Of a stretch of 64,000 nt of DNA, positions 1,213 through 39,310 are shown in pieces (position 1 is the stretch's first letter; each line of letters starts with the position of its first letter). Under the pieces are notes generated by a model. The model was given only the letters and a program-made list of their open reading frames with translations, searched no databases and was not told where the DNA came from. Source of the DNA: Collinsella stercoris DSM 13279 (lineage in GTDB: Bacteria; Actinomycetota; Coriobacteriia; Coriobacteriales; Coriobacteriaceae); contig NZ_CP085935.1 of NCBI RefSeq assembly GCF_020735465.1, positions 1,922,001 through 1,986,000 on the forward strand, in the 5' to 3' direction. The position numbers were made by a program, and so were the translations under genes.

Positions 1213-3582
1213 ATGTTCACTACCATCATTTCCCTTGTGGGGCTCGTCGCCTCCGCCTATCTGGGCCGACGGGAGCTCAGCCGCCGCAAGGCTTCCGGGG
1301 AGCGCTCCGGCTTGGGCTGGGCTGTCGCATTTTGCGTCATGCAGCTCATCGCCGCCCTGCTCGGCGTGCTGGGTATGGCGCCCGATGACATCCTTTCCCC
1401 CATCGTTCTGAACTTGGTGCTCACGGCGTGTGCATGGGGCAGCTTTGCCCGCGACCTCGTGTGGCAGCGCGTGACCTCCTACATCGAGCGCGGCGCCCAA
1501 GCCGAAGCGCGCACATTCGCGCCCGACTGCGCCGCCTGCGACAAGTACGAAACCTGCGGCCACCGCATTGCCAAACCCGAGGACCTCACCCTCGCCGGAC
1601 GCCTAGGTGCCACCCTTCGCAAGCTGGGACGCACTGCCAGCGCGCTCCTGCACCGCCCCACCGCCGTTCGCATCATCATCCTGCTGCTCGCGGGCCTCTT
1701 TGCCATGCTCGCACTCGAGATTCCCTCCAACCACGATCTCACGTGGTACTACCCGCTGTGCATCCTGCTCGAGTGGTCGCTCATCAGCGCCGTCATGATC
1801 GGCTTGTACCACCTGTTCCAGCGCCATGGCGTCGCCCCCGCCGTTATCGCTTTTGCGCTATGGGGCATCGGCATGGCCCAGTTCTTTGTCATCACGTTCA
1901 AGTCCATGCCCATCCAGCCCGCTGACCTCTCCGCCCTGGGCACCGCCGCTGCGGTGAGCGCCGGCTACGACTACATCTTTAGTGCCTTTGGCCTGTACGG
2001 CATGGCCCTGCTCGCGGTGTCGATGTTCCTCTGCTCGCTGGCGTCCGAGTTCCGCGTCGCCCGCGCAGAACGCACGCGCAAGCACGTGCTCGTTAACCTG
2101 CTCGTGGGAGTGCTGTGCCTCGCCGGCGTGACCGCACACGTCACGCTCATCGACTACTACAACACCCTCAACATCACCGTGTACACGTGGCGCCCGCTCG
2201 AGAGCTACTACCGTCAGGGTTTTATCCCCACGTTCATCTCGAGCGCCCAGACCATCAAGCCCCCCGTGCCCGAGGACTACGACATGCAGGCGGCAGAGGA
2301 GCTCGAGAAGTCGCTCGCCGCGACATACGACGCCGGCGAGGGCGACGACGCCAGCCACGTGCTCGCGCAAAAGCAGTTTGACCAGGAAAAGCCCGCGGTC
2401 ATCGCCATCATGAACGAGACCTTCTCCGACCTGTCGATTTACCAGAACATGCACGCCGGCTACAACGGCCCGCAATTCTTCAAGAGCCTCCCCGACGCCC
2501 TGGCGCGCGGCACGCTGTACGTGAGCGCCTACGGCGGCGGCACATGCAACACCGAATTCGAGTTCCTCACCGGCAACTCCATGTCTTACTTGGGCTCCGG
2601 CGTGTACCCCTACACGATCTACGACCTCAACGAGACCAAGAACCTCGCCGCGCAGTTCAAGGACCTCGGCTACACCACCACCGCCATGCACCCCAACCAC
2701 GGCACCAACTGGAACCGCGAGAACGTGTACAGCGGCTTTGGGTTTGACCAGTTCCTGACCATCGAGGACTTCCAGAACGCCGACAAGCTCCGCGGCATGG
2801 TGACCGACGCCGCCACCTACGACGCGATCCTCGAGATGCTCAAAACCAACGATGAGCCGCAGTTCATCTTCGACGTCACCATGCAGAACCATTCGGGCTA
2901 CGACACTGGCCTGCTACCCGCCGACAAGCAGCTCAACTTCTCTATCGATGGCGAGAGCAACGCCGAGGTCAACGAGTACCTATCGCTCATCGAGGAATCC
3001 GACCGCGCACTCGAGCAGTTCATTGGCGAGCTGCGCGAGCTCGACCGCCCCGTTGTGGTGGTGTTCTTTGGCGATCACCAGCCGTTCTTCCCCGATAAGT
3101 ACAACAACCGCTGGTTCCTCAACGAGGAGAAGGCAGACCACAACATGCGCCTGTGGACCACGGACTATCTCATCTGGGCGAACTACGACGTGGCGGGCAA
3201 CAGCCAGGAGAGTGCCGACATCGACCTTTCCACGAACTACCTGGGCACCGAGATGATGAACCTCATCGGCGCGCCGCTTACCGACTATCAGAAGGCCCAG
3301 TTGGTCCTGCGCCAGTCGCTGCCGGCAATCAACACCACCGGCTTCCTCGACTCCGCGGGCTCCGTGTACCTGGCGAGCGTCAAGAGCGACACTAACGCGT
3401 CCGCCGACCCTGCCATGCCCGCGAGCTCGCTGCAGCAGGCCCTCGAGGCGCGCATGCAGTACGCGCAGATTCAATACCTCGAGCTGTTTGGCGACGGCAA
3501 GGACGTCTACACCAAGCAACATCAGAGCGCCGCGAACGAGACCGACCCCAACCTCGCCCCGGGCACGACCAAGATCAAGTAG
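1213..3582 (+). CDS. LTA synthase-family sulfatase-fold membrane transferase
   Basis: A 789-residue polytopic enzyme predicted to transfer phosphoglycerol-type groups to cell-envelope glycopolymers on the outer face of the membrane. The N-terminal third has several membrane segments (first at residues 1-20, then about 30-75, 130-240 and 280-300). The extracellular sulfatase-like domain follows: E402 in the ETFSD motif, the presumed nucleophile T444 in a GGGTCNTEFE motif, and D621-H622 in GDHQP, as in LtaS/MdoB-type enzymes. The start ATG at 1213 follows AAGAAGAGG. An open frame extends upstream to 787 but crosses the 20-bp repeat array and lacks coding character. Odd feature: a CxxC-x5-CxH cluster (C106, C109, C115, H117) in a loop between membrane segments looks like a metal site. 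The substrate is not known. Confidence 0.9.
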   Translation: MFTTIISLVGLVASAYLGRRELSRRKASGERSGLGWAVAFCVMQLIAALLGVLGMAPDDILSPIVLNLVLTACAWGSFARDLVWQRVTSYIERGAQAEARTFAPDCAACDKYETCGHRIAKPEDLTLAGRLGATLRKLGRTASALLHRPTAVRIIILLLAGLFAMLALEIPSNHDLTWYYPLCILLEWSLISAVMIGLYHLFQRHGVAPAVIAFALWGIGMAQFFVITFKSMPIQPADLSALGTAAAVSAGYDYIFSAFGLYGMALLAVSMFLCSLASEFRVARAERTRKHVLVNLLVGVLCLAGVTAHVTLIDYYNTLNITVYTWRPLESYYRQGFIPTFISSAQTIKPPVPEDYDMQAAEELEKSLAATYDAGEGDDASHVLAQKQFDQEKPAVIAIMNETFSDLSIYQNMHAGYNGPQFFKSLPDALARGTLYVSAYGGGTCNTEFEFLTGNSMSYLGSGVYPYTIYDLNETKNLAAQFKDLGYTTTAMHPNHGTNWNRENVYSGFGFDQFLTIEDFQNADKLRGMVTDAATYDAILEMLKTNDEPQFIFDVTMQNHSGYDTGLLPADKQLNFSIDGESNAEVNEYLSLIEESDRALEQFIGELRELDRPVVVVFFGDHQPFFPDKYNNRWFLNEEKADHNMRLWTTDYLIWANYDVAGNSQESADIDLSTNYLGTEMMNLIGAPLTDYQKAQLVLRQSLPAINTTGFLDSAGSVYLASVKSDTNASADPAMPASSLQQALEARMQYAQIQYLELFGDGKDVYTKQHQSAANETDPNLAPGTTKIK

Positions 3583-3602
3583 CGAAAGGGGCTGTGGACA
3601 AA

Positions 3603-3651
3603 AAGCCGCACCGCTCGAATGGTTCGGCTTGGAGGCACACATGCGTGCCTC
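3603..3651 (+). terminator. Two hairpins directly after the LTA-synthase-like gene
   Basis: AAGCCG at 3603-3608 pairs with CGGCTT at 3625-3630, and GAGGCAC at 3632-3638 pairs with GTGCCTC at 3645-3651. Neither has a clear T run. They may stabilise the mRNA end or assist the stronger terminator about 70 bp further on. Confidence 0.4.
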
Positions 3652-3716
3652 GACGGCGTGAGCCTCCTTGGCGCAACGCCCATGCGCAATGCACATCCAC
3701 AAGATGCCGTCATCAC

Positions 3717-3756
3717 AAAAGGCTCGCCGAGAACGATTCTCGGCGAGCCTTCTTCT
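3717..3756. terminator. Bidirectional intrinsic terminator
   Basis: A perfect 13-bp stem (3721-3733 with 3737-3749, GGCTCGCCGAGAA) has a 3-nt loop, A residues on the left and a TCTTCTTT tract on the right. It lies between the convergent LTA-synthase-like gene and the ABC permease gene and can serve both strands. Confidence 0.85.
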
Positions 3757-3922
3757 TTGAGGGTTATCGTGAGGCTTTTGGGCGGACATGGGGTGCAGTT
3801 CACGCCCAGCATGTCGGTTCAACTTCGGGCTACAGACCGCGCCCAATTTGCCGAACCATCTACAAGCCACGAGTCGCGTGCGAAATAGAGCCACGCGATG
3901 GCGAACCGCGGGCGCAAATAAG

Positions 3923-4633
3923 CTACAGGTCGCGCGCGGAATAGAGGCGCACGGCGATAAACGAGCTCGCCACGTAGACTGCAAGCGAGATCGCCAGCGC
4001 GGCAAAGGCGATCAATCCCAGACCGCCTGTCGTCTCCGCAAGCTCAATCGCGCCCTTCACCTGGTCGAGCAGCGGCCCGCCGATGACGCCCAACACAAGG
4101 AACGGGGCCACGCTCAGGAACAGCATGATGAACGGCAGGTACTGCGTCGCCTTGGTCATGCCGAGCTTGAAGTACGCCGGCAGCGTCACGCTGCAGATGC
4201 ACAAACCAATGCAGGCGCAGGAAATCGATGCGACGAGCGTCGCCTCAAGCTGCTGATTGCCCCAGACGGCGAGGTTTGCCAAAAACTCCGGCAACTCAAC
4301 CGCGGACCCCAGCGCGATAAACGCCGTCATGAGCACCGCCGCAATGGCAGCCGCAAAGATAGCCGCCAGTAGGTTGAACGCATAGCGACCCCGCACCACG
4401 TCGCAACGCGTCAAAGGCATGGCCATCCGGTACGACCCCCACTCGTTTTGATCGTCATACATCGAGGAGCTCATCGACATGCTGAACATAACTATCAAGA
4501 ACGCCACACCCGGTGCTGACGTCAACGAACCCATGCCCGCAGCGAGGCATGGAATCATAATCAACATCGTGAGCGCAATCTGCTTGAGGTACTTCTTGAG
4601 CACCGCGAGCTCCATCTTCATCATGCGCAGCAT
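3923..4633 (-). CDS. ABC-2 type transporter permease
   Basis: A 236-residue integral membrane protein with about six hydrophobic segments (around residues 15-35, 40-55, 90-115, 140-165, 170-195 and 210-230), typical of small ABC2-type export permeases. A conserved-looking cytoplasmic motif (DDQNEWGSYRMAMPLTR) sits between the second and third segments, as in Firmicutes and Actinobacteria permeases paired with YtrA-type regulators. Its ATG overlaps the stop codon of the ATPase gene upstream (TAATG), so translation is coupled. The substrate is unknown; exporters in YtrA-type operons often respond to envelope stress or peptide antibiotics. Confidence 0.88.
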   Translation of the reverse strand: MLRMMKMELAVLKKYLKQIALTMLIMIPCLAAGMGSLTSAPGVAFLIVMFSMSMSSSMYDDQNEWGSYRMAMPLTRCDVVRGRYAFNLLAAIFAAAIAAVLMTAFIALGSAVELPEFLANLAVWGNQQLEATLVASISCACIGLCICSVTLPAYFKLGMTKATQYLPFIMLFLSVAPFLVLGVIGGPLLDQVKGAIELAETTGGLGLIAFAALAISLAVYVASSFIAVRLYSARDL

Positions 4634-5580
4634 TACCGCACACCCCCTTTCACGTTATTGATGCTCGTCTGCATCGGTGCACCCTTCAACATGAGCGCCA
4701 TGTAGTCGTCAATCGTGATGCGATCGCATGGAATCTCGGGGAACGCCCGCGTAAAGGCGAATCTGTCGCTCACCAGCACGTCGATGCCGTACTCATGGCG
4801 CACGTAACGCTCAGCCAGTTGCCCAGACACGCCCTCGTTCTGCAGGCGCTCAAAATCGACCGCACGGCAACGGGCCACGCCCATCATGTCGCAAATCTCA
4901 TCCTTGGCGCAGCGGAACACCACCCGCCCCTCGTCGATGCAGAGTACCTCATCGGCGATCTTATCGAGGTCACTCGTGATGTGGCTGCTCATGAAGATCG
5001 CGTTGACCGGCTCGCCGTTCGAGCCCTCTACCGCCACAAAATCGCGCAGCAGGTCGAGCACCTCGTCGCGCGCCATGGGGTCCAAGCCCGCCGTCGCCTC
5101 GTCCAAGATGAGCAGGCGCGGCTGATGCGCCAGCGCGCATGCCAGGCTCAGCTTCATACCCATACCGCGCGAAAGGTCCTTGACCGTCTTGGCGCGGTCG
5201 AGCCTGAAGCGCCCGAGCATACGCTCGAACATATCCGCGTCCCAAGTGCGATACGCGCATGCCATGAGATTGCCCACCTCACCAACCGTAAGATGCGGGG
5301 GCAAAGACACCGTGTCGAACACCACGCCCACCTGCTCGCGCATCTGCGCCGCCTCGCTCGGCGCGCAGGCGCCCACGGGCACACCCAAAACGGTCGCCTG
5401 GCCGCCGTCGAGACCAATCAGCCCCAACAGCGCTTTGATGGTCGTCGACTTTCCCGCACCGTTTTGGCCGATAAAGCCCACAATCTGGCCCGTATCCACG
5501 GTGAGGTCCACCGCATCGAGCGTAAAGCCGTCGTAGCGCTTGGTGATCCCGCGCGCATCGATGAGCCGTTCCATACCCAT
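4633..5580 (-). CDS. ABC transporter ATP-binding protein
   Basis: A 315-residue cytoplasmic ATPase that would energise the adjacent permease. The Walker A motif is GQNGAGKST near residue 38; a signature-like SRGMGMKLSLA and Walker B LLILDEATAGLD follow near residues 138-165, then an H-loop region (SSHI). The last 90 residues are a variable C-terminal extension usual in this group of single-domain exporter ATPases. The ATG at 5580 directly follows the regulator stop codon, with GGAGGG about 10 nt upstream inside the regulator gene. The signature motif (SRGMG in place of SGGQ) is a common variant of ABC-2 type exporters. Confidence 0.93.
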   Translation of the reverse strand: MGMERLIDARGITKRYDGFTLDAVDLTVDTGQIVGFIGQNGAGKSTTIKALLGLIGLDGGQATVLGVPVGACAPSEAAQMREQVGVVFDTVSLPPHLTVGEVGNLMACAYRTWDADMFERMLGRFRLDRAKTVKDLSRGMGMKLSLACALAHQPRLLILDEATAGLDPMARDEVLDLLRDFVAVEGSNGEPVNAIFMSSHITSDLDKIADEVLCIDEGRVVFRCAKDEICDMMGVARCRAVDFERLQNEGVSGQLAERYVRHEYGIDVLVSDRFAFTRAFPEIPCDRITIDDYMALMLKGAPMQTSINNVKGGVR

Positions 5581-5958
5581 TTACTCGTCACCCTCCATCA
5601 GGACGGTCATCATCTCAACGAGCTCCGCCGCGCTCACGCCGATGACGCGCGCACCCTCGATGGCCCGCAGCAAATGCCCCTCGACCTCGCGCAGGCGCTC
5701 CTCGCGCAGGAGCTCGTCGTTGCCGCCGGCAACAAAGCTGCCCTTGCCCTGCACGGTCTCGATGAACCCTTGAGCCTCGAGGTCGGCATAGGCGCGCTTG
5801 GTGGTAATCGCGCTCACGCGCAGGCTGTTTGCGAGCGCGCGAATCGAGGGGAGCTGCTCGCCCGCCACGAGATTGCCAGCCATGATCTGATCTTTGATCT
5901 GGCTCGTGATCTGCTCGTAAATGGGCTTTGAGCTCGAGTTTGAGATGATGATGTCCAC
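5581..5958 (-). CDS. GntR-family (YtrA subfamily) transcriptional regulator
   Basis: A 125-residue regulator: an N-terminal winged helix-turn-helix (residues 8-75, including KPIYEQI, GEQLPSIRALA and TTKRAYADLEAQGFI) followed by a short helical C-terminus, the compact form typical of YtrA. The start is taken as GTG at 5958 because AAGGAAA lies 8 nt upstream and homology begins there; a longer frame to 6081 would run back through the promoter palindrome. It is the first gene of a three-gene operon with the ATPase and permease and probably represses it by binding the palindromes just upstream. Confidence in the family is high; the inducer is unknown. Confidence 0.92.
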   Translation of the reverse strand: MDIIISNSSSKPIYEQITSQIKDQIMAGNLVAGEQLPSIRALANSLRVSAITTKRAYADLEAQGFIETVQGKGSFVAGGNDELLREERLREVEGHLLRAIEGARVIGVSAAELVEMMTVLMEGDE

Positions 5959-6042
5959 AAACAGTTTCCTTCCCAGTTGGCTCGCAAGGCGTCCCTTGGC
6001 GAGCGCTACGGCCCAGGTCGACGTCCTACCTGCGCCATAACC

Positions 6043-6098
6043 GAGTATAGTGTATATACTCGATAAGTACAGTATATACACACCTATGCACAGCGCAA
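6043..6098 (-). promoter_or_regulatory. Promoter and palindromic operator of the YtrA-type operon
   Basis: GAGTATA at 6043-6049 and TATACTC at 6055-6061 form a palindrome, and a second self-complementary GTATATAC lies at 6071-6078. On the minus strand a -10 candidate TATACT (6075-6070) is preceded 16 nt upstream by TTGCGC (about 6097-6092). The overlap of AT-rich palindromes and core promoter fits autorepression by the GntR-family protein. Inference from position and symmetry. Confidence 0.6.
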
Positions 6099-6160
6099 TA
6101 CCCTAAATTACAGACCGGCAACAGCGAGCACGGCCCGTATGATTCGCGTCTATCCATATA

Positions 6161-6191
6161 AAACGACCCTCGAAGAAAACCTTCGAGGGTC
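6161..6191 (-). terminator. Intrinsic terminator of the GatB/YqeY gene
   Basis: An 11-bp perfect stem (GACCCTCGAAG at 6165-6175 with its complement at 6181-6191) has a 5-nt loop and, on the minus strand, a CGTTTTAT tract. It is downstream of the gene ending at 6254. Confidence 0.8.
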
Positions 6192-6253
6192 ATCACGCGA
6201 ATCATCGATGGGCCGGGCGCCTTTCCAAACCAGCACCCGCCACAGAACGTCTG

Positions 6254-6700
6254 TTACGCCAGGCGGGCACCCACCATCTGAGCGGCGGCGGGCTTGTCAA
6301 AGTTGCCGTTCGTGGCCTTGGTCAGCGCGCCCATCACACGGCCCATGTCCTTCTTGGACTCGGCGCCGATCTCAGCGATAACCTGCTCAATCAGGGCATC
6401 CAGCTCGTCGCCGGACACCTGGGCGGGCAGCAGGCTCTCGAGCACCGCCACCTGCTCGCGCAGGTTCTGCGTGCGCTCCTCGTTGTTGCCGGCCTTCTCG
6501 GACATCTCGAGCGTCTCGTTGGTCTGCTTGAGGGTGCGCTTGATCTGGGCGGTCGTCTCCTCCTCGGTGATCTCGTGCGCGCCGCCGCGCGACGCGGCGT
6601 TCTTGAGCTCGCCCAGCACCAGGCGCGTCACGCCCAGGCGCACCTTGTCCTTGGCCTTCATCGCAGCGACCATCTCGGCATGCAGCTCTTCGTATGTCAT
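6254..6700 (-). CDS. GatB/YqeY domain-containing protein
   Basis: A 148-residue soluble protein of the YqeY family, which shares its fold with the tRNA-binding tail of the amidotransferase subunit GatB; the cellular role is not firmly known. Family features are visible: an N-terminal helical part with LRLVLGELKNA-like sequence, the motif EQVAVLESLLPAQVSGDEL near residue 90, and the C-terminal KKDMGRVMGALTKATNGNFD block. The ATG at 6700 is preceded by GTGAGGAG. Length is normal for the family. It lies just downstream of the foldase gene on the same strand with a GC-rich hairpin between them. Confidence 0.9.
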   Translation of the reverse strand: MTYEELHAEMVAAMKAKDKVRLGVTRLVLGELKNAASRGGAHEITEEETTAQIKRTLKQTNETLEMSEKAGNNEERTQNLREQVAVLESLLPAQVSGDELDALIEQVIAEIGAESKKDMGRVMGALTKATNGNFDKPAAAQMVGARLA

Positions 6701-6739
6701 GTCAAACTCCTCACTTTGCACCGGCGCGTCAAGCGTATT

Positions 6740-6768
6740 GGGCGCCCCGTCCGAACGGCAGGGCGCCC
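6740..6768 (-). terminator. GC-rich hairpin after the foldase gene
   Basis: GGGCGCCC at 6740-6747 and again at 6761-6768 (self-complementary arms) form an 8-bp stem directly after the foldase stop codon. There is no T run, so it may be a weak terminator or an mRNA 3' stabiliser. Confidence 0.4.
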
Positions 6769-6777
6769 GCAACGAAT

Positions 6778-8031
6778 TTACTTCGCGGAATCCTTCTTGC
6801 CGTCGGCGTCCTTCTTGTCCGCCTTGCCGTCCTCCGCCAGCGCCTTGTCCATGTCAACGTTGTACGGAACCTCCTCGGGCATCTCGTTGATCTTGATGTC
6901 CGCCTTCTCGGTGTACTCGGTCAGCCACTCGGAGTACTTCTCGCTCTCCGCAGTCGTCTTGATGCGCTCGGCGATGGCGTCGCGAATCCCCTCGGGCACC
7001 TCGTCGATGCTGCTCACGGTCTGTACGTTGAACTGCCCCGTGCACTTGATGATGTGGTAGCCGTACGTCGTCTTGACCAGCCCGCTCATCTGCCCGTCGG
7101 AAAGACCGCTCAGCGCGTCCTGGTACTCGGTCACGAACGTGGTGAGCTTGTCCCAACCCACATCCCCGCCGTTCTTGGCGGAACCGTCCTCGGAGTACTT
7201 CTCGGCGGCCTTGGCGAACTCGATCTCGCCGGCGTTCAGCTTGTCGAGGACCTTCTGGGCCTCGGCCTCGACCTTGGCACGCTCCTCCTCAGTCGCGTCC
7301 TCGGCCACCTTGAACAGGATGTGCGACGAGCGGCGCGCGTCGTTGTAGGTGGAGAGGTTCTCGTTGAGGTACGCGACGATGTCCTCGTCAGAGGGCTTCT
7401 TGACGCCCGCGACCTTCTCGCGCAGCTTCTGCTGGGCCAGCGAGCTCTTGATGTTCTCGAGGTAGGTCTCCTTGGTGAAACCGAACTGCGAGATCGTCTC
7501 CACAAAAGCGTCCTCGTCGCCGCCGTTGCCCTCGACGGCTTCCTTCCACGCCTTGTCGAGGTCCTCCTGCGTCACCTTGATGCCGTAGTCCTTCTCGGCC
7601 TGCACGAGCAGGTACTGGCGAACGATGCTGTCGATGACGTTCTCGCGGTACGTCTCGGGCGTCATGCCCTGCTGGGACAGGTACGTCGCCCAGTCCTTGT
7701 CGCTCTCGTATGCGGACTGGCGCATGCTCATGATCTGCTCGGTCACGCTGTCTTCCTTGATGTTGACGCCGTTGACCGTGGCCGCAACGCCGCCGGTGAG
7801 CTTGTAGTCCTCCTTGGACTGCACCTCGTTGAGGACGCCGGAGCACGCCATGGCGCTCACCGAGAGCAGCATGGCGGCGATGCCGATTGCCACCAGCACG
7901 ATCTTACCGGTCTTGGAGAGCTTCTCCTTGCGCTTTGCCTTGATCTCGCGCTTGCTGGGCTTGGGGGCCTCCGCGGCATCCGCCTTGGTCGTCTCCCGCT
8001 TAATCTTGGGGCTTTTCTTACTAACAGCCAT
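6778..8031 (-). CDS. PrsA/SurA-like peptidyl-prolyl isomerase, membrane-anchored
   Basis: A 417-residue foldase for exported proteins. A basic, Lys-rich cytoplasmic tail of about 40 residues precedes one hydrophobic segment (about 43-63, KIVLVAIGIAAMLLSVSAMAC), which could be a membrane anchor or a lipoprotein-like signal with the Cys at its end. A SurA-type N-terminal helical domain follows (about 80-230), then a parvulin rotamase domain (about 235-340) with the hallmarks SSHILFK, FAKAAEKYSEDGSAKNGGDVGW and TTYGYHIIKC. The tail is helical and Lys/Asp-rich. The ATG at 8031 is preceded by GAAAGAAGG. In a Gram-positive with large secreted LPXTG enzymes next door this is a natural partner for their folding, but that link is inference. 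Confidence 0.9.
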   Translation of the reverse strand: MAVSKKSPKIKRETTKADAAEAPKPSKREIKAKRKEKLSKTGKIVLVAIGIAAMLLSVSAMACSGVLNEVQSKEDYKLTGGVAATVNGVNIKEDSVTEQIMSMRQSAYESDKDWATYLSQQGMTPETYRENVIDSIVRQYLLVQAEKDYGIKVTQEDLDKAWKEAVEGNGGDEDAFVETISQFGFTKETYLENIKSSLAQQKLREKVAGVKKPSDEDIVAYLNENLSTYNDARRSSHILFKVAEDATEEERAKVEAEAQKVLDKLNAGEIEFAKAAEKYSEDGSAKNGGDVGWDKLTTFVTEYQDALSGLSDGQMSGLVKTTYGYHIIKCTGQFNVQTVSSIDEVPEGIRDAIAERIKTTAESEKYSEWLTEYTEKADIKINEMPEEVPYNVDMDKALAEDGKADKKDADGKKDSAK

Positions 8032-18037: not shown

Positions 18038-18045
18038 TCGCGCTG

Positions 18046-18212
18046 CGCCCATTTGACCCGTGCCCGTTTGACCTGCACCCATTTGACGCGCGCCCGTTTG
18101 CCCTGCGCTTGCTTGTCACGTGCTTGCTTGTCCCGCGCCCGTTTGACCCGCGCCCGCCTACTTCATGCCCGTTTATTTCGCGCCCATTTAGCCCGCACCC
18201 ATTTAATCCCCG
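18046..18212. repeat. Tandem array, exact 15-bp period, 11 copies
   Basis: The CCC(G/A)TTTGACC-like core recurs at 18048, 18063, 18078, 18093, 18108, 18123, 18138, 18153, 18168, 18183 and 18198, always 15 bp apart. The consensus is close to CGCCCGTTTGACCCG; copies differ by 1-6 bases. Because 15 is a multiple of three the frame stays open and would read as RPFDP-like pentapeptides, but these lie upstream of the likely start of the next gene. Confidence 0.9.
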
Positions 18213-22339: not shown

Positions 22340-22556
22340 GTCCATCGGGGTCGAGGCGCGTGTCCGTGTGCGGCGGGCGTCCAAACGAGGCGCGTGTCCA
22401 ATCCGAGCGCACGTCCAAGCGAGGTGCGTGTCCAATCGTGGCGCGTGTCCAAATCGAGCGTACGCCCAAGCGAGACATGCGTCCAATCGAAGTGCGCCCA
22501 GCCGCAGCGCACGTCCAATCGCGGCCCATCCCCAATCGCGCTCATGTCCAATGTGT
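22340..22556. repeat. Tandem array, exact 17-bp period, about 11-12 copies
   Basis: GTCC-type cores occur at 22362, 22379, 22396, 22413, 22430, 22447, 22464 and 22481, all exactly 17 bp apart, with more decayed copies at about 22340, 22513, 22530 and 22546. The consensus is close to GTCCAATCGAGGCGCGT. It lies between the divergent mutase and pyridoxamine kinase genes. Confidence 0.9.
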
Positions 22557-27849: not shown

Positions 27850-27940
27850 CGTCCAATTGTAGAGATTTCAACCGTCCAATTGCAGCATTTTTAACCGTCC
27901 AATTGCAGACTTTTTGACCGTCCAATTGCAAATCGCATGC
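27850..27940. repeat. Tandem array, exact 23-bp period, 4 copies
   Basis: CGTCCAATTG begins at 27850, 27873, 27896 and 27919, exactly 23 bp apart, each followed by an AT-rich spacer such as CAGCATTTTTAAC. CAATTG is self-complementary, so each unit could be a binding site on nearly the same helix face (about 2.2 turns). The array lies upstream of the NUDIX gene and downstream of purD. Confidence 0.88.
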
Positions 27941-29576: not shown

Positions 29577-30863
29577 CTACCAGTCCCGAACGATGGTCTG
29601 CTCGCGATCCGGGCCCACGGCGACAAAGCTCACCTTGCAGCCGGCGAGCTTCTCGATGTAGGCCACGTAGTCCTGGGCGGCCTGGGGCAGCTCGTCAAAG
29701 GTGCGGCACCCGGTGATGTCGCACTTCCAGCCGGGCAGCTCCTCATACACCGGCACGGCGCTTGCAAACGCGGCGGTGTGCTCGGGCACGGTGGCGTAGC
29801 GCGTGCCGTTCACGTCGTAGGCCACGCAGACCTTGATGGTATCGAACTCAGACAGCACGTCGAGTTTGGTCAGGGCGATATCGGTCAGGCCGTTCACGCG
29901 GGTGGCGTAGCGGGCGATCACGCCGTCGAACCAGCCGCAGCGGCGGCGGCGACCGGTGGTCACGCCGTACTCATAGCCGACCTCGGTGAGGGTGCGGCCG
30001 TCCTCGTCCGTGTCGTAGTCGAGCTCGGTGGGCATGGGACCGGAACCCACGCGGGTGGTGTAGGCCTTCATGATGCCGAGCACGCGGTCGATGGCCTTGA
30101 CGCCCACGCCGGAGCCCGTCACGGCGCCGCCGGCGGTGCAGTTGGACGAGGTGACAAACGGGTAGGTGCCGTGGTCGATGTCGAGCAGCGTTGCCTGGGC
30201 ACCCTCGAACAGGATGTTCTTGCCCTGCTCCACCAGGTCGTTGAGCAGGATGCCCGTCTCGCAGATGTACGGGCGCAGGCACTCGGCCATGGGCAGGTAA
30301 GACTCGCAAATCTGGTCCACCGTGTAGGTGGGCAGGTTGAAGATGCGCTCGAGCTGCGGATTCACGCGGTCAAGGACGGCGGCGAGCTTGGTGCGGAACG
30401 TGTCCTCATCCAGCAGGTCCTGCATGCGAATGCCCACGCGGGCCATCTTGTCCTGGTAGCACGGGCCGATGCCGCGCTTGGTGGTGCCGATGTTGTTCTT
30501 GCCCAGCAGTTCCTCGTAGGCGCCGTCCAGGTCGACGTGATACGGCATGATCACATGCGCGTTGCCCGAGACCTTGAGGTTGGCGGTGGAAATGCCGTCA
30601 CGCTCGAACATGTCGATTTCCTCGAGGAGCACGGCGGGGTTCACCACGCAGCCGTTGCCGATGACCGAGATGCAGTCCGGGTACATGATGCCGGAGGGCA
30701 CCTGGTGCAGGCCGTACTTCTTATCGCCCACCACGATGGTGTGGCCGGCGTTGTTTCCACCCTGGTAGCGGACGACGCAGTCGAACTCGGGAGCGATCAG
30801 GTCGCAGATCTTGCCCTTGCCCTCGTCGCCCCATTGGGTTCCCACCAACACTGTTGACGGCAT
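29577..30863 (-). CDS. purA: Adenylosuccinate synthetase (PurA)
   Basis: A 428-residue GTP-dependent enzyme joining IMP and aspartate on the way to AMP. Motifs: the N-terminal P-loop-like GTQWGDEGKGKICD with its catalytic Asp, NNAGHTI with the catalytic His, RGIGPCYQDK, EGAQATLLDIDHGTYPFVTSSN, and the aspartate loop VTTGRRRRCGW near 300. All key residues seem present and the length is normal. The ATG at 30863 follows TGAGGAG. A TATAAT about 100 nt upstream suggests the promoter and a structured leader. Confidence 0.97.
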   Translation of the reverse strand: MPSTVLVGTQWGDEGKGKICDLIAPEFDCVVRYQGGNNAGHTIVVGDKKYGLHQVPSGIMYPDCISVIGNGCVVNPAVLLEEIDMFERDGISTANLKVSGNAHVIMPYHVDLDGAYEELLGKNNIGTTKRGIGPCYQDKMARVGIRMQDLLDEDTFRTKLAAVLDRVNPQLERIFNLPTYTVDQICESYLPMAECLRPYICETGILLNDLVEQGKNILFEGAQATLLDIDHGTYPFVTSSNCTAGGAVTGSGVGVKAIDRVLGIMKAYTTRVGSGPMPTELDYDTDEDGRTLTEVGYEYGVTTGRRRRCGWFDGVIARYATRVNGLTDIALTKLDVLSEFDTIKVCVAYDVNGTRYATVPEHTAAFASAVPVYEELPGWKCDITGCRTFDELPQAAQDYVAYIEKLAGCKVSFVAVGPDREQTIVRDW

Positions 30864-30869
30864 GACTAC

Positions 30870-30966
30870 TCCTCATTCCGTGCGAACGGGCCGCTCCCGC
30901 GCGCAGCTCTTGCAACCGGGTTCCTTCCCGGACCTGACCTCAGTGGGGTCAACGTTCCCATTATAG
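30870..30966 (-). promoter_or_regulatory. purA promoter and structured leader
   Basis: On the minus strand a perfect -10 TATAAT lies at 30966-30961; no clear -35 is seen. The roughly 95-nt leader can form TGACC-CCACTGA-GGTCA and CCGGG-AAGGAA-CCCGG hairpins before the purA RBS. The second hairpin shows a purine-rich AAGGAA loop. It may be an attenuator or a protein-binding leader, and no known riboswitch class was recognised. Confidence 0.45.
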
Positions 30967-30975
30967 GCATGCAAA

Positions 30976-31008
30976 GGGCCCGTGCCGCCAACGATACGGC
31001 ACGGGCCC
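30976..31008 (-). terminator. Hairpin terminator after the AlbA/ATP-binding gene
   Basis: A 12-bp perfect stem GGGCCCGTGCCG (30976-30987) with its complement at 30997-31008 has a 9-nt loop. On the minus strand it is followed by TTTGCAT. It may also limit read-through into purA. Confidence 0.78.
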
Positions 31009-31070
31009 TCATTCCACCATTACTCAATAGCGAGCGTGCGTAATGGCATGCGCAGATTGGCGGCCTTCGC

Positions 31071-31185
31071 CACTGCGACAGCCCTGCGACATTTTGTCGG
31101 AGCTCTGCGACAAAATGTCGCCGCTTTGTCGCAGTAGTGTCGCAGCTTTGTCGCAGTAGCATCGCAGCCGTGTCGTAGCGGCGTT
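31071..31185. repeat. Left 11-bp tandem array (TGTCGC/GCGACA), about 10 copies
   Basis: TGCGAC or TGTCGC cores lie at about 31074, 31085, 31095, 31106, 31116, 31127, 31138, 31149, 31160 and 31171, a spacing of 10-11 bp, close to one helical turn. The orientation flips near GCGACAAAATGTCGC at 31107-31121. A second array with the same unit and orientation is at 32981-33060; they share GCTCTGCGACAAAATGTCGC exactly. Confidence 0.88.
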
Positions 31186-31218
31186 GCATCGCTGCCAATG
31201 GCGCATATCGCTTGAGCA

Positions 31219-32922
31219 CTAGCCCTTCAAATATTGACGAGCCGAGCTCGATTGCCCGGCGGTCGGCACTGCCAATCCGGCGTCAACCAGTTCGCGCAAG
31301 TAGCGTTGAACTGTTCGGACGCTTTTGCGCAGGCGTTGCGCAAGCTCCTGCGCGTCCACCGGCTCTTCCTCGTCAAGCATGAGATACACGCTGCGAACAA
31401 TGGGGCGCAGGGCGGAAAGCCGGTCGTCATCACCCGCGGAATCACACGCCGCCAACTCGAGCATGTCATCAGCCCATGCAAGAGGAACGCCCTGTTCCTG
31501 CAGGTGTTTTGCAAGATCGCGCACCCTATCCGAATCCAACCCCAGGGCTTCGTGTATATCCCAAACTGAAGAGACCCCTCGCTCTCTCAACAAGAGAAGC
31601 AGCGCTTCCGCGTCTTTACCAACCGTTTCGTCGGTCAGCGTTGCAAGCCATGCACGATTTTCGACAATTTCGGTCCCGTGCCTACCCAAACACAGCGTCA
31701 CGCGATCCATTCCAATGTGGAACTCGGGGCTTTCCAAAGCGCGGGAACGCATCTCCCTGATCATGAAAGGAATACCCGTACCGTTTCCCTCCGCGATCTT
31801 ACCCCCCTCATCCGACAGCGGCACGCCATCAATGAGCGACATGAGCAAATCGTTGCGGCATTCCGACACGCCATCCGCTAAATTCTCGCGGGTTCTCGTT
31901 CCCCATAGGCCTCCGGGATTCGCTATCTCGATACGATTGGGATACACATCGATGCTTACCGATTGCCCCACGAACCGTTCATCGTACTCGCGGTGAACGA
32001 CCGCATTTGCAATCGCCTCGCGTAGAACCTCCCGGGGAATTTCAAGCTCATCGTGACGACCAGTGCCAGTCACCAGAGAAACGCTTCTTAGGTTGCGAGC
32101 GACCGTCTCGACGGCCATGTCCACCATCTCGACAACGCCGCCGTCGCATCGGACTCGGTCGAGAAAACGCACTGAACCAGGAGCACCCTTTTCGTTGTCG
32201 GGAAACACCGCAACATCAATGATTAGCTTCGGGTAGTACTGCTGGGGGTACAGGCCAAGCACAAGCAAGCCTGCAAGGGTCACGCTTCCGTCTGCGGTAA
32301 GCACGCCGAGGCGCTTGAGCTGGTCGATCTTTCCATTAGCCCCGCGTAGGGCGCGGCTGTGCCGCCGAGCCCTCAACAGTTCGTCAACCAGCGCGTCGTC
32401 GAGATCTTCCATATGGGCAACAGGAATTCTGTCGGCACCACTTCGCACCATCGCGTGCTGTATCTCAAAGAGCTCTGTCGCCGAGAGCTGCACATCTTTA
32501 TCAAACACGCGCTTAAAGCTCCCCGAGCGTATGCCCCGGGCATCGATATAGCAGGGCTTCTGGGCCAGCTCGTTCTCCTCGATTTCGACTACCAGCAAAT
32601 GCTCGCCTTCAAAATCAATCACGTCCGCTTGATAACGAGGTGGATTTGCAAGCTTGACGCCATCTTTCCCGCCATCGCCGATGCCGCTCATGAACTGATC
32701 GAGCGTTCGTTCTGGATTAAATCCCTTGGAAACAACAAAGCCTTCCGGCTCACTCAAACCCAACAGCAGGGTGCCACCGTTGGTGTTGGCAAACGCGCTC
32801 ACGCTTTCCCAAACATCGGAACTCAGTTTTTTGCCGCACGCCTTTGCTTCAAATTTTGAATTATCCGTTCCATCTGCGCGCATTTGATAAATAGCCGAGG
32901 CTAATTGCTCCGCGGTAATCAT
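31219..32922 (-). CDS. AlbA/Schlafen-type ATP-binding protein with winged helix
   Basis: A 567-residue protein of the COG2865-like group once labelled RecG-like or transcriptional regulator. The N-terminal AlbA_2 (Schlafen-related) domain (about 8-130) has NSKFEAKACGKKL and VSAFANTNGGTLLLGLSE. A GHKL-like ATP-binding part (about 300-420) has REAIANAVVHREYDER and NRIEIANPGGLWG. The C-terminal 110 residues hold one or two winged helices (AQELAQRLRKSVRTVQRYLRELVDAGL). Cellular roles in this family are poorly known and include regulation and nucleic-acid processing in defence. The start at ATG 32922 follows GGTGGGG; 32940 is an alternative. It is monocistronic and bounded on both sides by direct copies of the 11-bp array, suggesting a mobile cassette or autoregulation. 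Confidence 0.85.
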   Translation of the reverse strand: MITAEQLASAIYQMRADGTDNSKFEAKACGKKLSSDVWESVSAFANTNGGTLLLGLSEPEGFVVSKGFNPERTLDQFMSGIGDGGKDGVKLANPPRYQADVIDFEGEHLLVVEIEENELAQKPCYIDARGIRSGSFKRVFDKDVQLSATELFEIQHAMVRSGADRIPVAHMEDLDDALVDELLRARRHSRALRGANGKIDQLKRLGVLTADGSVTLAGLLVLGLYPQQYYPKLIIDVAVFPDNEKGAPGSVRFLDRVRCDGGVVEMVDMAVETVARNLRSVSLVTGTGRHDELEIPREVLREAIANAVVHREYDERFVGQSVSIDVYPNRIEIANPGGLWGTRTRENLADGVSECRNDLLMSLIDGVPLSDEGGKIAEGNGTGIPFMIREMRSRALESPEFHIGMDRVTLCLGRHGTEIVENRAWLATLTDETVGKDAEALLLLLRERGVSSVWDIHEALGLDSDRVRDLAKHLQEQGVPLAWADDMLELAACDSAGDDDRLSALRPIVRSVYLMLDEEEPVDAQELAQRLRKSVRTVQRYLRELVDAGLAVPTAGQSSSARQYLKG

Positions 32923-32980
32923 GACGCCCCACCGCCTCATTGCGTGACGAATTTCACTTGATGCGCTCAAGTATACGCGC

Positions 32981-33060
32981 ACTGCGACACGGCCGCGACA
33001 GCTCTGCGACAAAATGTCGCAGCCGTGTCGCAGTCATGTCGCAGACGTATCGTAGCGACG
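32981..33060. repeat. Right 11-bp tandem array, about 7 copies
   Basis: TGCGAC/TGTCGC cores occur at 32983, 32994, 33005, 33015, 33026, 33037 and 33048 (spacings 11, 11, 10, 11, 11, 11). It has the same order and orientation as the array at 31071-31185, including the central GCGACAAAATGTCGC. It lies in the promoter region of the ATP-binding gene. Confidence 0.88.
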
Positions 33061-33134: not shown

Positions 33135-34529
33135 CTATTCAACCGCGTGTTCGTCGATCTCGTAGAACTTGGTCGACGCGGGCAGGAACATCAGGTCGAC
33201 GTCGCCGATGGGGCCGGAACGGTTCTTGGCCACGATCACGCGCGTGATGCCAAAGTCCGGACGATCCTCGCGCTCGGCCTCGGCCTCGGTGCTCGAACGA
33301 TCCAGCAGCATGACGATGTCGGCGTCCTGCTCGATGGAGCCCGATTCGCGCAAGTCGCTCATCTGCGGGCGCTTGCCCGTACGGCCCTCGAGCGAACGGT
33401 TGAGCTGCGACAGCATGATGACGGGGACGCCCAACTCTTTAGCCATGATCTTGAGGCCACGGCTCATCTCGGACACCTCGACGGCACGGTTGCCGTTGTA
33501 GTTCTTGCCTGCCGGCGGATTCACCAGCTGCAGGTAGTCCAGGATGATGACGGCGCGCTCCTTGTTGTGGAGCATGCGTCGCGCCTTGGCGCGAATCTCG
33601 GTCACCGTGGTGCCGGGGGTGTCGTCGATAAGGATGTCGAGGCGGCCGAGCTCGGCGATCGCCTCGTTGATGTTCGCCCACTCCTCGGGCGAGATGCGGC
33701 CAGTGCGGAAGTTGGACATGTTCACCATGGCCTGCGCGCAGATAAAGCGCTGCGCGATTTCCTTGCCGGACATCTCCAGGGAGAAAAAGCCCACGGTGTA
33801 ACCATCCGCCGCCGCGTTGAGCGCCAAGTTCAACGCGAACGAGGTCTTACCCACGGCCGGACGGGCGCCCAAAACCACGAGCTGGCCCTCGCGCAGGCCC
33901 ATGAGCATGCGGTCGAGGCTGGGGTAACCCGTGGGCGCGCCGTGGACGTCGCCACCGGCGCGGGCCACCTCCTCGGCCTCTTGATACGCCTCGGTCATAA
34001 AGTCCGAAAGGCCCTTATACGAGCTCTTGACCTCGCGCTCCGTAACGGAGAGCAACATGGACTCCGCACGCTCGATGACCTCCTTGGTGTCGAGCGGAGA
34101 GTCGTAGGCAAGGGCGCTGATCTGGTTGGTGGCGCCGATGATCTCGCGCAGCATGGCGTCGCGCCGCACGATCTCGGCATGATGCTGCCAATGGGCGAGC
34201 GCCAGCGTGTTGCCCATGAGCTCCAGGATGTACGCCTCGCCGCCCACGGCCTCGAGCTTGTCGATGGAGCGCAGGTAATCGATGAGCGAGATCGAGTCGA
34301 TGGGCATGCTGCTCTCGTACATGCCGGACATCGCGGTAAAGATCGTCTTGTGCGAGGGGCGATAGAAGTCGTCGGGCAGCAGCTCGACGAGCGCCTCCTC
34401 GACCACCTCGCCCGACAGCATCATCGCGGCGAGGACGTTACCCTCGGCCTCGGTGTTGTTGGGCAGGCCCTTGATCGCGCCAAGGTCAGTCGAACCCGTT
34501 TGCGACCAGCTGTTGCTGACGATTTCCAC
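33135..34529 (-). CDS. dnaB: Replicative DNA helicase (DnaB)
   Basis: A 464-residue hexameric helicase that unwinds DNA at the replication fork. The N-terminal DnaB domain (about 20-125) begins LPNNTEAEGNVLAAMMLS. The RecA-like motor (about 190-455) has Walker A GARPAVGKTSFALNLA, Walker B AVIILDYLQLV, sensor and arginine-finger blocks LSQLNRSLEGRTGKRPQMSDLRESGSIEQDAD, and a C-terminal VIVAKNRSGPIGDVDL. No intein interrupts it. Start is GTG at 34529 with GAGGAGG 4 nt upstream. It is the downstream member of the rpsF-ssb-rpsR-rplI-dnaB group but separated from rplI by about 800 bp containing a terminator, so it has its own promoter. Confidence 0.97.
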   Translation of the reverse strand: MEIVSNSWSQTGSTDLGAIKGLPNNTEAEGNVLAAMMLSGEVVEEALVELLPDDFYRPSHKTIFTAMSGMYESSMPIDSISLIDYLRSIDKLEAVGGEAYILELMGNTLALAHWQHHAEIVRRDAMLREIIGATNQISALAYDSPLDTKEVIERAESMLLSVTEREVKSSYKGLSDFMTEAYQEAEEVARAGGDVHGAPTGYPSLDRMLMGLREGQLVVLGARPAVGKTSFALNLALNAAADGYTVGFFSLEMSGKEIAQRFICAQAMVNMSNFRTGRISPEEWANINEAIAELGRLDILIDDTPGTTVTEIRAKARRMLHNKERAVIILDYLQLVNPPAGKNYNGNRAVEVSEMSRGLKIMAKELGVPVIMLSQLNRSLEGRTGKRPQMSDLRESGSIEQDADIVMLLDRSSTEAEAEREDRPDFGITRVIVAKNRSGPIGDVDLMFLPASTKFYEIDEHAVE

Positions 34530-38943: not shown

Positions 38944-39063
38944 TCCTCATCTCTTTCGAAGAGCCTGTTTTCATGATGCAGTGTAGCCCGACACATGCCC
39001 GGCACGCGCGCGAACGCCCGGGATTAAGTGCGGCTTAAGGCGCACGTGCGCGGAACCGCCCGT

Positions 39064-39223
39064 TACATGTGTGGAAACCACCGGCCATATGTGCGTAAAC
39101 CGCCGGTTGAAACAACATGGTTCGTTTCAACCGGCCGCTTACGCACAGAAATACCCCTGATAATGTGCTTTACCAATGGTTTGAAACGATCAGCGTGTTT
39201 TCAAACGGTGGTTTACGCACATA
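39064..39223. repeat. Two tandem hairpins built from one alternating unit (BIME-like)
   Basis: A 24-27-bp unit related to TATGTGCGTAAACC plus CGGTTGAAAC appears forward at 39088-39113, inverted at 39124-39147, forward at 39161-39187 and inverted at 39197-39223, with a decayed forward copy at 39067-39086. The two inverted pairs form separate hairpins. Alternating orientation resembles bacterial interspersed mosaic elements. Confidence 0.78.
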
Positions 39224-39310
39224 GTGGCACAGGGCGCATAACGGCACGTGGCGCATGGCGGCACACGGCACGCAGCAACACATGGCACACGGCGGCACGT
39301 GGCCCGCCCG
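39224..39310. repeat. Irregular 8-10-bp GGCAC-type repeats
   Basis: GCA(C/T) cores occur every 7-10 bp (for example 39227, 39236, 39244, 39253, 39261, 39268, 39285, 39295). The spacing is less regular than in the other arrays. Confidence 0.5.

Follow-up and report, generated by a model that had tools for sequence, protein, structure and literature searches.

A Schlafen-type gene of Collinsella stercoris flanked by helically phased half-site arrays that probably act as its own operator

The Schlafen-type gene and its two flanking arrays

The window—the whole stretch of 64,000 nucleotides of Collinsella stercoris DNA that was analysed—belongs to a genome of 2.46 Mb in one contig and contains a Schlafen-type gene with dnaB upstream and purA downstream, all three being transcribed in one direction (Table 1). 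The G+C content of the Schlafen-type gene is 56.2%, versus 63.7% in dnaB and 64.9% in purA. Only intergenic DNA separates it from those two genes, so that no Xre partner gene stands directly beside it, and neither of these immediate neighbors is a BREX core gene. The TATACT listed as its putative -10 was read from the sequence, the consensus scan for promoters having found no promoter-like site; and because that hexamer lies close to the nearest array unit (from 32982), the array would overlie the spacer, the -35 region, and DNA further upstream. The terminator scan gave matches at chance level only, and the hairpin beyond the left array fails the T-run rule of that scan.

Table 1. Features of the dnaB–purA interval, in window coordinates.
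Feature	Position	Strand	Remarks
purA, adenylosuccinate synthetase gene (flank)	29577-30863	minus	
Putative purA -10, TATAAT	30960-30965		Read from sequence
Perfect 13-bp hairpin beyond the left array, possible terminator	30975-31009	minus	Inverted repeat I12
Left (downstream) array, 10 half-sites	31073-31178		Past the gene's stop codon, ahead of the purA promoter
Schlafen/AlbA_2–GHKL–winged-helix gene, 567 aa	31219-32922	minus	Pfam, structure model, fold search
Recognition-helix codons, residues 535-547 of the C-terminal winged helix	31282-31320	minus	Model helix; covariation peak
Putative -10 of the Schlafen-type gene, TATACT	32970-32975	minus	Inferred from sequence
Right (upstream) array, 7 half-sites	32982-33055		Dyad centre AAA at 33012-33014; all steps 11 bp
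dnaB, replicative helicase gene (flank)	33135-34529	minus	

The product of the gene is a Schlafen/AlbA_2–GHKL ATPase–winged-helix protein of the COG2865 type, each of whose three domains was found, which result bears out the call of an AlbA/Schlafen, ATP-binding, winged-helix gene made in an earlier sequence-only reading of this DNA. In Pfam, PF04326 (SLFN_AlbA_2) matched residues 21-143 (37.9 bits versus a cut-off of 25.3), PF13749 (HATPase_c_4) residues 319-411 (64.2 bits versus 26), and winged-helix models residues 443-492 and 507-552. The AlphaFold2 model, built on an 11-sequence alignment (mean pLDDT 76.8, pTM 0.50), contained two helix-turn-helix units, with residues 535-547 forming the recognition helix of the last. 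Fold comparison retrieved 3lmm at Z 21.6 over 346 residues with an rmsd of 15.6, which value indicates that the domains are placed differently from those of 3lmm; 2kyy at Z 10.9, in support of the AlbA_2 domain; GHKL kinases (histidine-kinase and PDK folds); and winged-helix repressors. SLFN13 was a weak Foldseek match (E 0.0015), and SLFN12 too was matched weakly. The GHKL N-box residues E302 and N306 were invariant in the 11 sequences, as were the acidic residues 25 and 58, at most candidate equivalents of the catalytic carboxylates of the mammalian active site. The Pfam search detected no transposase, Y1-transposase, or nuclease-of-DNA domain in the protein, and NCBIfam gave no match to it; the weak PADLOC matches to pAgo, WYL, and Csa3 were ascribed to shared AlbA/Schlafen or winged-helix domains.

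Both 11-bp arrays are confirmed as real and far beyond chance. The paired unit TGTCGCAGNNNTGTCGCAG matched the window 12 times with up to 3 mismatches—1.41 matches being expected and none of 100 shuffles reaching 12—with a single one of those matches (16076) outside the arrays. When the entire 2.46-Mb genome was scanned with up to 2 mismatches, 10 of the 12 matches fell in the two arrays, the other two lying beside a truncated relative of the gene (1891982) and at a weak site (2419690); complete arrays of this gene's unit occur in its own genome only at its two sides. The exact sequence that the earlier reading had placed on both sides of the gene is indeed there in the form of the 20-mer GCTCTGCGACAAAATGTCGC, which is present on the same strand in exactly two copies in the window (31102-31121 and 33001-33020). 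The right array consists, in order, of three CTGCGACA-type units, AAA, and four TGTCGCAG-type units, and the left one of units oriented - - + - + + + + + +, from which mixture of orientations each array is to be regarded as a dyad of half-sites and not as a one-way tandem. The same orientation formerly attributed to the two arrays therefore applies to the AAA centre that they share, but not to one-way tandems; similarly, the 11-bp phasing then proposed holds throughout the right array and, save for one 10-bp step (31095 to 31105), in the left.

The window also contains degenerate tandem arrays with different units, at 314-506, 902-1028, 18045-18190, 22352-22490, 27850-27930, and 39050-39303.

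Arrays, phasing, and the recognition helix across the family

Homologues from 80 loci of named genomes, together with 15 sequences from the window and its relatives, gave 95 proteins, which were clustered at 80% identity into 65 groups. For each, the 250 bp upstream were searched on both strands for the most frequently repeated 6-mer, which was then judged against dinucleotide shuffles. At p ≤ 0.01, upstream arrays were detected in 35 of 64 homologue clusters versus 2 of 139 control segments preceding other reading frames at the same loci, so that the arrays sought beside other AlbA genes exist family-wide, with gene-specific units. Downstream, the corresponding counts were 6/65 and 7/156, with no overall enrichment; accordingly, the upstream array is general, the downstream copy is a trait of a subset, and most homologues have the upstream array only. 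Five of the six significant downstream arrays reuse the upstream unit (the window, L076, L083, L152, and L032); in L041, significance is confined to the downstream array. A second control, based on Collinsella intergenic segments, agreed in finding a 6-mer repeated at least 5 times in 5/37 segments beside homologues versus 1/114 elsewhere, and p ≤ 0.01 in 5/37 versus 4/114. By eye, several of the 29 of 64 clusters that miss p ≤ 0.01 upstream have degenerate arrays and others none.

The commonest unit in the family is CACTGA/CAGTGA (CASTGA), others being TGTCGCAG, TCTCTCTAA, GAGAGATAA, TTAGAATG, and CACTTTCC; the TGTCGCAG unit stands on both sides of the gene also in L076, a locus of the Atopobiaceae with a sister gene whose product is 53% identical to the window protein. 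In 12 actinobacterial genomes, all 14 matches to CASTGA arrays with at most 1 mismatch, and 2 of the 8 with 2 mismatches, lay in a homologue's upstream region. A search of 395 genomes of the order for the exact two-unit pattern, which is too strict to detect the L076 arrays, matched the own genome and, beyond it, only a single pair in each of two genomes; these pairs, which lack the gene, were treated as chance or relics. Three of the 15 viral-contig loci tested (of 18; L230, L234, and L247 were left out) reached p ≤ 0.01 upstream; 11-bp arrays likewise accompany some distant viral-contig relatives (22-23% identity), and one of the 18 (37% identity) lies on a contig whose length and coordinates are those of the bacterial locus L143. 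Eight distant plasmid homologues from several other phyla had no significant array, and none of the 72 plasmid and 25 phage records matching the protein covers 80% of it. The close relatives L190 (G011) and L088 have upstream arrays of different length, which difference suggests that the number of units may vary.

The spacing of the units was analysed in the 35 clusters with upstream p ≤ 0.01. Among 187 distances between adjacent units, 93 were of 8-13 bp, 7 of 14-18 bp, 56 of 19-23 bp, and 6 of 24-30 bp, and the periodogram over 7-15.5 bp had its maximum at 10.5 bp. The proximal edge of the array was at most 60 nt from the start codon in 28 of those 35 clusters and at most 100 nt in all of them.

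Covariation of the unit with the protein is confined to the C-terminal winged helix, and within it to the recognition helix and the wing. In the 40 of 65 clusters with upstream p ≤ 0.05 and a protein longer than 400 aa, the partial Mantel correlation of the array with the winged helix given the N-terminal part was r = 0.405 (permutation p = 0.0005), while that with the N-terminal part given the winged helix was r = -0.009 (p = 0.53). When the correlation was followed along the protein in windows of 30 columns, with correction in each for all of the remaining protein, it did not reach 0.2 before the window that starts at residue 520 and was highest (0.418) at residues 530-559, with R543, which residue lies in the recognition helix, as the top single column. 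When the CASTGA class was removed, the partial correlation over the remaining 23 homologues fell to a point estimate of 0.219. The window protein and that of L076, both with the TGTCGCAG unit on the two sides of their genes, have TVQR at the recognition helix, at the first position of which site most CASTGA-class relatives have R, often followed by P. In the tree of the N-terminal part these two proteins are sisters (support 1.0) inside a clade of CASTGA-like relatives found in other actinobacteria, apart from the remaining Collinsella homologues. This placement, along with TVQR and TGTCGCAG, is as would be expected if specificity had switched after transfer.

Mobility of the gene and arrays without it

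Why the array is doubled might be explained by a recombination cassette, in which the gene enters and leaves through homologous recombination between flanking arrays that matter chiefly as direct repeats, a solo array being left behind, which account we regard as quite possible, if somewhat short of an even call. We examined the dnaB–purA slot in 30 loci of 43 Collinsella genomes and found it without a homologue in 27, with purA adjoining dnaB, the exceptions being the own genome, G022 (L053, another reading frame), and G013, whose slot harbors a different homologue with CACTTTCC arrays on both sides. None of the relatives inspected had a single-array empty site there, the empty sites inspected being without an array by eye. 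The purF–purM slot, for its part, contains in L082 a gene between two arrays and in L119 a related gene, and where no gene is present we found one array in G017 and a shorter one in G021; a one-array empty site, such as the sequence-only reading had suggested looking for, was thus found for a relative but not at dnaB–purA. Each of the two slots, furthermore, serves different homologues: dnaB–purA those of the window and G013, purF–purM those of L082 and L119. In L271, a solo-array locus, a 49-residue match (E 4e-5) over the purF frame was weak and was taken as chance.

Among the 22 loci of the C. aerofaciens group that share the flank of the L088 cassette, 5 have it unbroken and 4 cleanly lack it, the latter retaining a single copy of a 49-bp repeat present in two copies if the site is occupied; in one (L179) the array was kept and most of the gene deleted, and the other 12 are rearranged otherwise, one of them, L194, still aligning to the gene. 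The 49-bp repeat is palindromic and bounds the L088 cassette at 2679-2727 and 4767-4815, and diverged copies of it occur elsewhere in genomes of the group. A second cassette of the group (L122) is absent in L220 and L224, so that gene and array are cleanly present or absent at two sites. In the 61 of 65 clusters entering the flank-repeat test, direct repeats of at least 50 bits between the two flanks—not all of which are arrays—were found in 10, versus 2 of 3660 mismatched flank pairs.

The proposal that the gene together with one array copy had come or could go as a cassette is therefore indirectly favored by the slot empty in 27 of 30 loci and by related cassettes that come and go cleanly, but not by any single-array site at dnaB–purA. 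Moreover, the repeat that recombines in the C. aerofaciens case is not the array, most homologues have an array on the upstream side only, and a cassette predicts neither a unit that follows the recognition helix nor a 10.5-bp phasing.

Two further relatives of the gene were seen at L044 of the own genome (1885000-1896000). The first (2887-4389) has an in-frame TAG, with AACTTTCC units behind it, and the homologue in the dnaB–purA slot of G013 is a 44% relative of this interrupted gene; of the second (5636-7050) only a truncated C-terminal part remains, which is 98% identical to L042 over 48 residues and has an 11-bp TGCGAAAT array of its own, near which are a second copy of that array and a tnpA, which we take to be IS200/IS605-like.

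Arrays without a homologue within 1.5 kb occur in four Collinsella genomes (G008, G064, G017, and G021), the first of which has other homologues elsewhere; these solo arrays may be footprints, landing sites, or trans-regulated sites. Those of L272 and L274 (G008 and G064), large dyads built of ATCTCTCAG units, stand beside a gene that is presumably antiporter-like and could be either footprints or targets in trans. A wider regulon, in which the protein would in some species control also other genes through solo arrays, for instance at purF–purM or at the antiporter-like gene, could be built on these instances and on the other homologues of G008; nevertheless, we think it unlikely, inasmuch as the well-matching arrays of the own and the 12 actinobacterial genomes are located at the gene itself or at a truncated relative.

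In REP/RAYT systems a gene is bounded by repeats that its product, a transposase, would recognize, some of the repeats being solo. The window gene resembles them in being bounded by repeats that the protein putatively recognizes itself, with some solo arrays in the four Collinsella genomes, but differs in that its protein has no transposase or nuclease-of-DNA domain among its Pfam matches and in the very low copy number of arrays per genome. That the arrays are selfish repeats which spread with the protein as their partner is thus very improbable: complete arrays of the window unit lie in the own genome at the two flanks only, and the 395 genomes yielded no more than the own genome and two single pairs with the exact pattern, which misses the L076 arrays.

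An RNA element, that is, a transcript hairpin serving as terminator, attenuator, or RNase target, is hardly credible either: both arrays do give more stable folds than shuffled sequences (z about -4.4 to -5.1), but any dyad array folds well, the covariation is with the DNA-reading helix and not with the Schlafen domain, and we reject this reading because the arrays of several homologues (L081, L101, L032, and L237) are essentially direct repeats, which can form no such hairpin. In Rfam nothing was matched above threshold, and weaker hits of the dyads to miRNA and sRNA families were taken as chance.

A probable self-specific operator and its relation to known systems

We consider it probable that the protein binds cooperatively to the phased half-sites of its own promoter-proximal array and thereby regulates its own gene, most likely by repression. 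Starting from what was observed—phased arrays in a promoter-proximal position that recur through the family, with a unit that covaries with the recognition helix—we infer the binding, its cooperativity, and repression rather than activation. The arrays would be the operator of the gene that they flank, and the C-terminal winged helix would bind the TGTCGCAG half-sites; since these recur every helical turn, several protomers could align on one DNA face and bind cooperatively. Binding to the upstream array, because the latter would overlie the gene's own promoter region, would most likely repress the gene in a negative autoregulation, whereas the downstream copy, where present, would be a second cluster that could loop to the upstream array. 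With a half-site of its own for each homologue, every module would mainly target itself. The notion that both arrays are binding platforms for the encoded protein, put forward in the sequence-only reading, gains from the covariation and the 10.5-bp period, the binding being a prediction; and that notion and the cassette are compatible with each other.

Autorepressors with helically phased operator arrays are a general class. The window family shares with them clustered half-sites at helical spacing near the own start—in the window, beside the putative -10—and a specificity that follows the DNA-reading helix, but differs in that the half-site varies by member and the array is sometimes doubled behind the gene.

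PMC12839542 reports BREX linkage, in at least 1017 taxa, of Schlafen RNases that are joined in one protein with a minimal histidine kinase and a wHTH, and such Schlafen-GHKL-wHTH proteins are proposed there as RNase effectors of phage defence, with a preprint cited on phage defence by bacterial Schlafens. The window protein has the domain order and fold of those COG2865/Schlafen proteins (structures 3lmm and 2kyy); its gene, however, is stand-alone, with dnaB and purA and not BREX genes as neighbors, and has its own phased array, of which kind of array the passages of PMC12839542 consulted make no mention. The putative toxin–antitoxin family Xre-COG2865, named in PMC5308263, has a COG2865-type protein in common with the window, whose gene, in contrast, is without an adjacent Xre, the only DNA-binding domain found being the protein's own winged helix. 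Among titles and opening lines of abstracts, subscription papers and preprints aside, we recognized no description of gene-specific phased arrays; the protein family is already known, and its gene-specific phased arrays appear undescribed, for which latter statement this is weak evidence of absence.

By the literature on related proteins, the Schlafen domain would be an RNase-type defence effector; and with no partner gene directly beside the gene, a fused, self-controlled version would be the natural reading. A bolder one, in which a single gene makes up a complete defence module, at once toxin, antitoxin, and lock to itself, is unlikely. If it were true, the protein would polymerize on its two phased arrays or loop between them, ATP holding the GHKL domains clasped, so that the Schlafen effector was kept both in short supply and sequestered on the module's DNA; the effector would be freed whenever a phage stripped or copied that DNA or lowered ATP; array–array recombination would spread the module between species; and changes of half-site would insulate co-resident modules.

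How stand-alone Schlafen effectors are restrained is not stated in the part of PMC12839542 at hand, to which question a gene-specific phased operator that covaries with the recognition helix would be a direct and testable answer. The family would in addition constitute a natural series of matched protein–DNA pairs for decoding winged-helix specificity, and the phased arrays a sequence signature by which such modules could be found.

As a separate observation, a distant homologue on a Roseomonas mucosa plasmid (L248) has a DUF6079 gene on one side and a DNA methyltransferase gene on the other, which neighborhood is defence-like.
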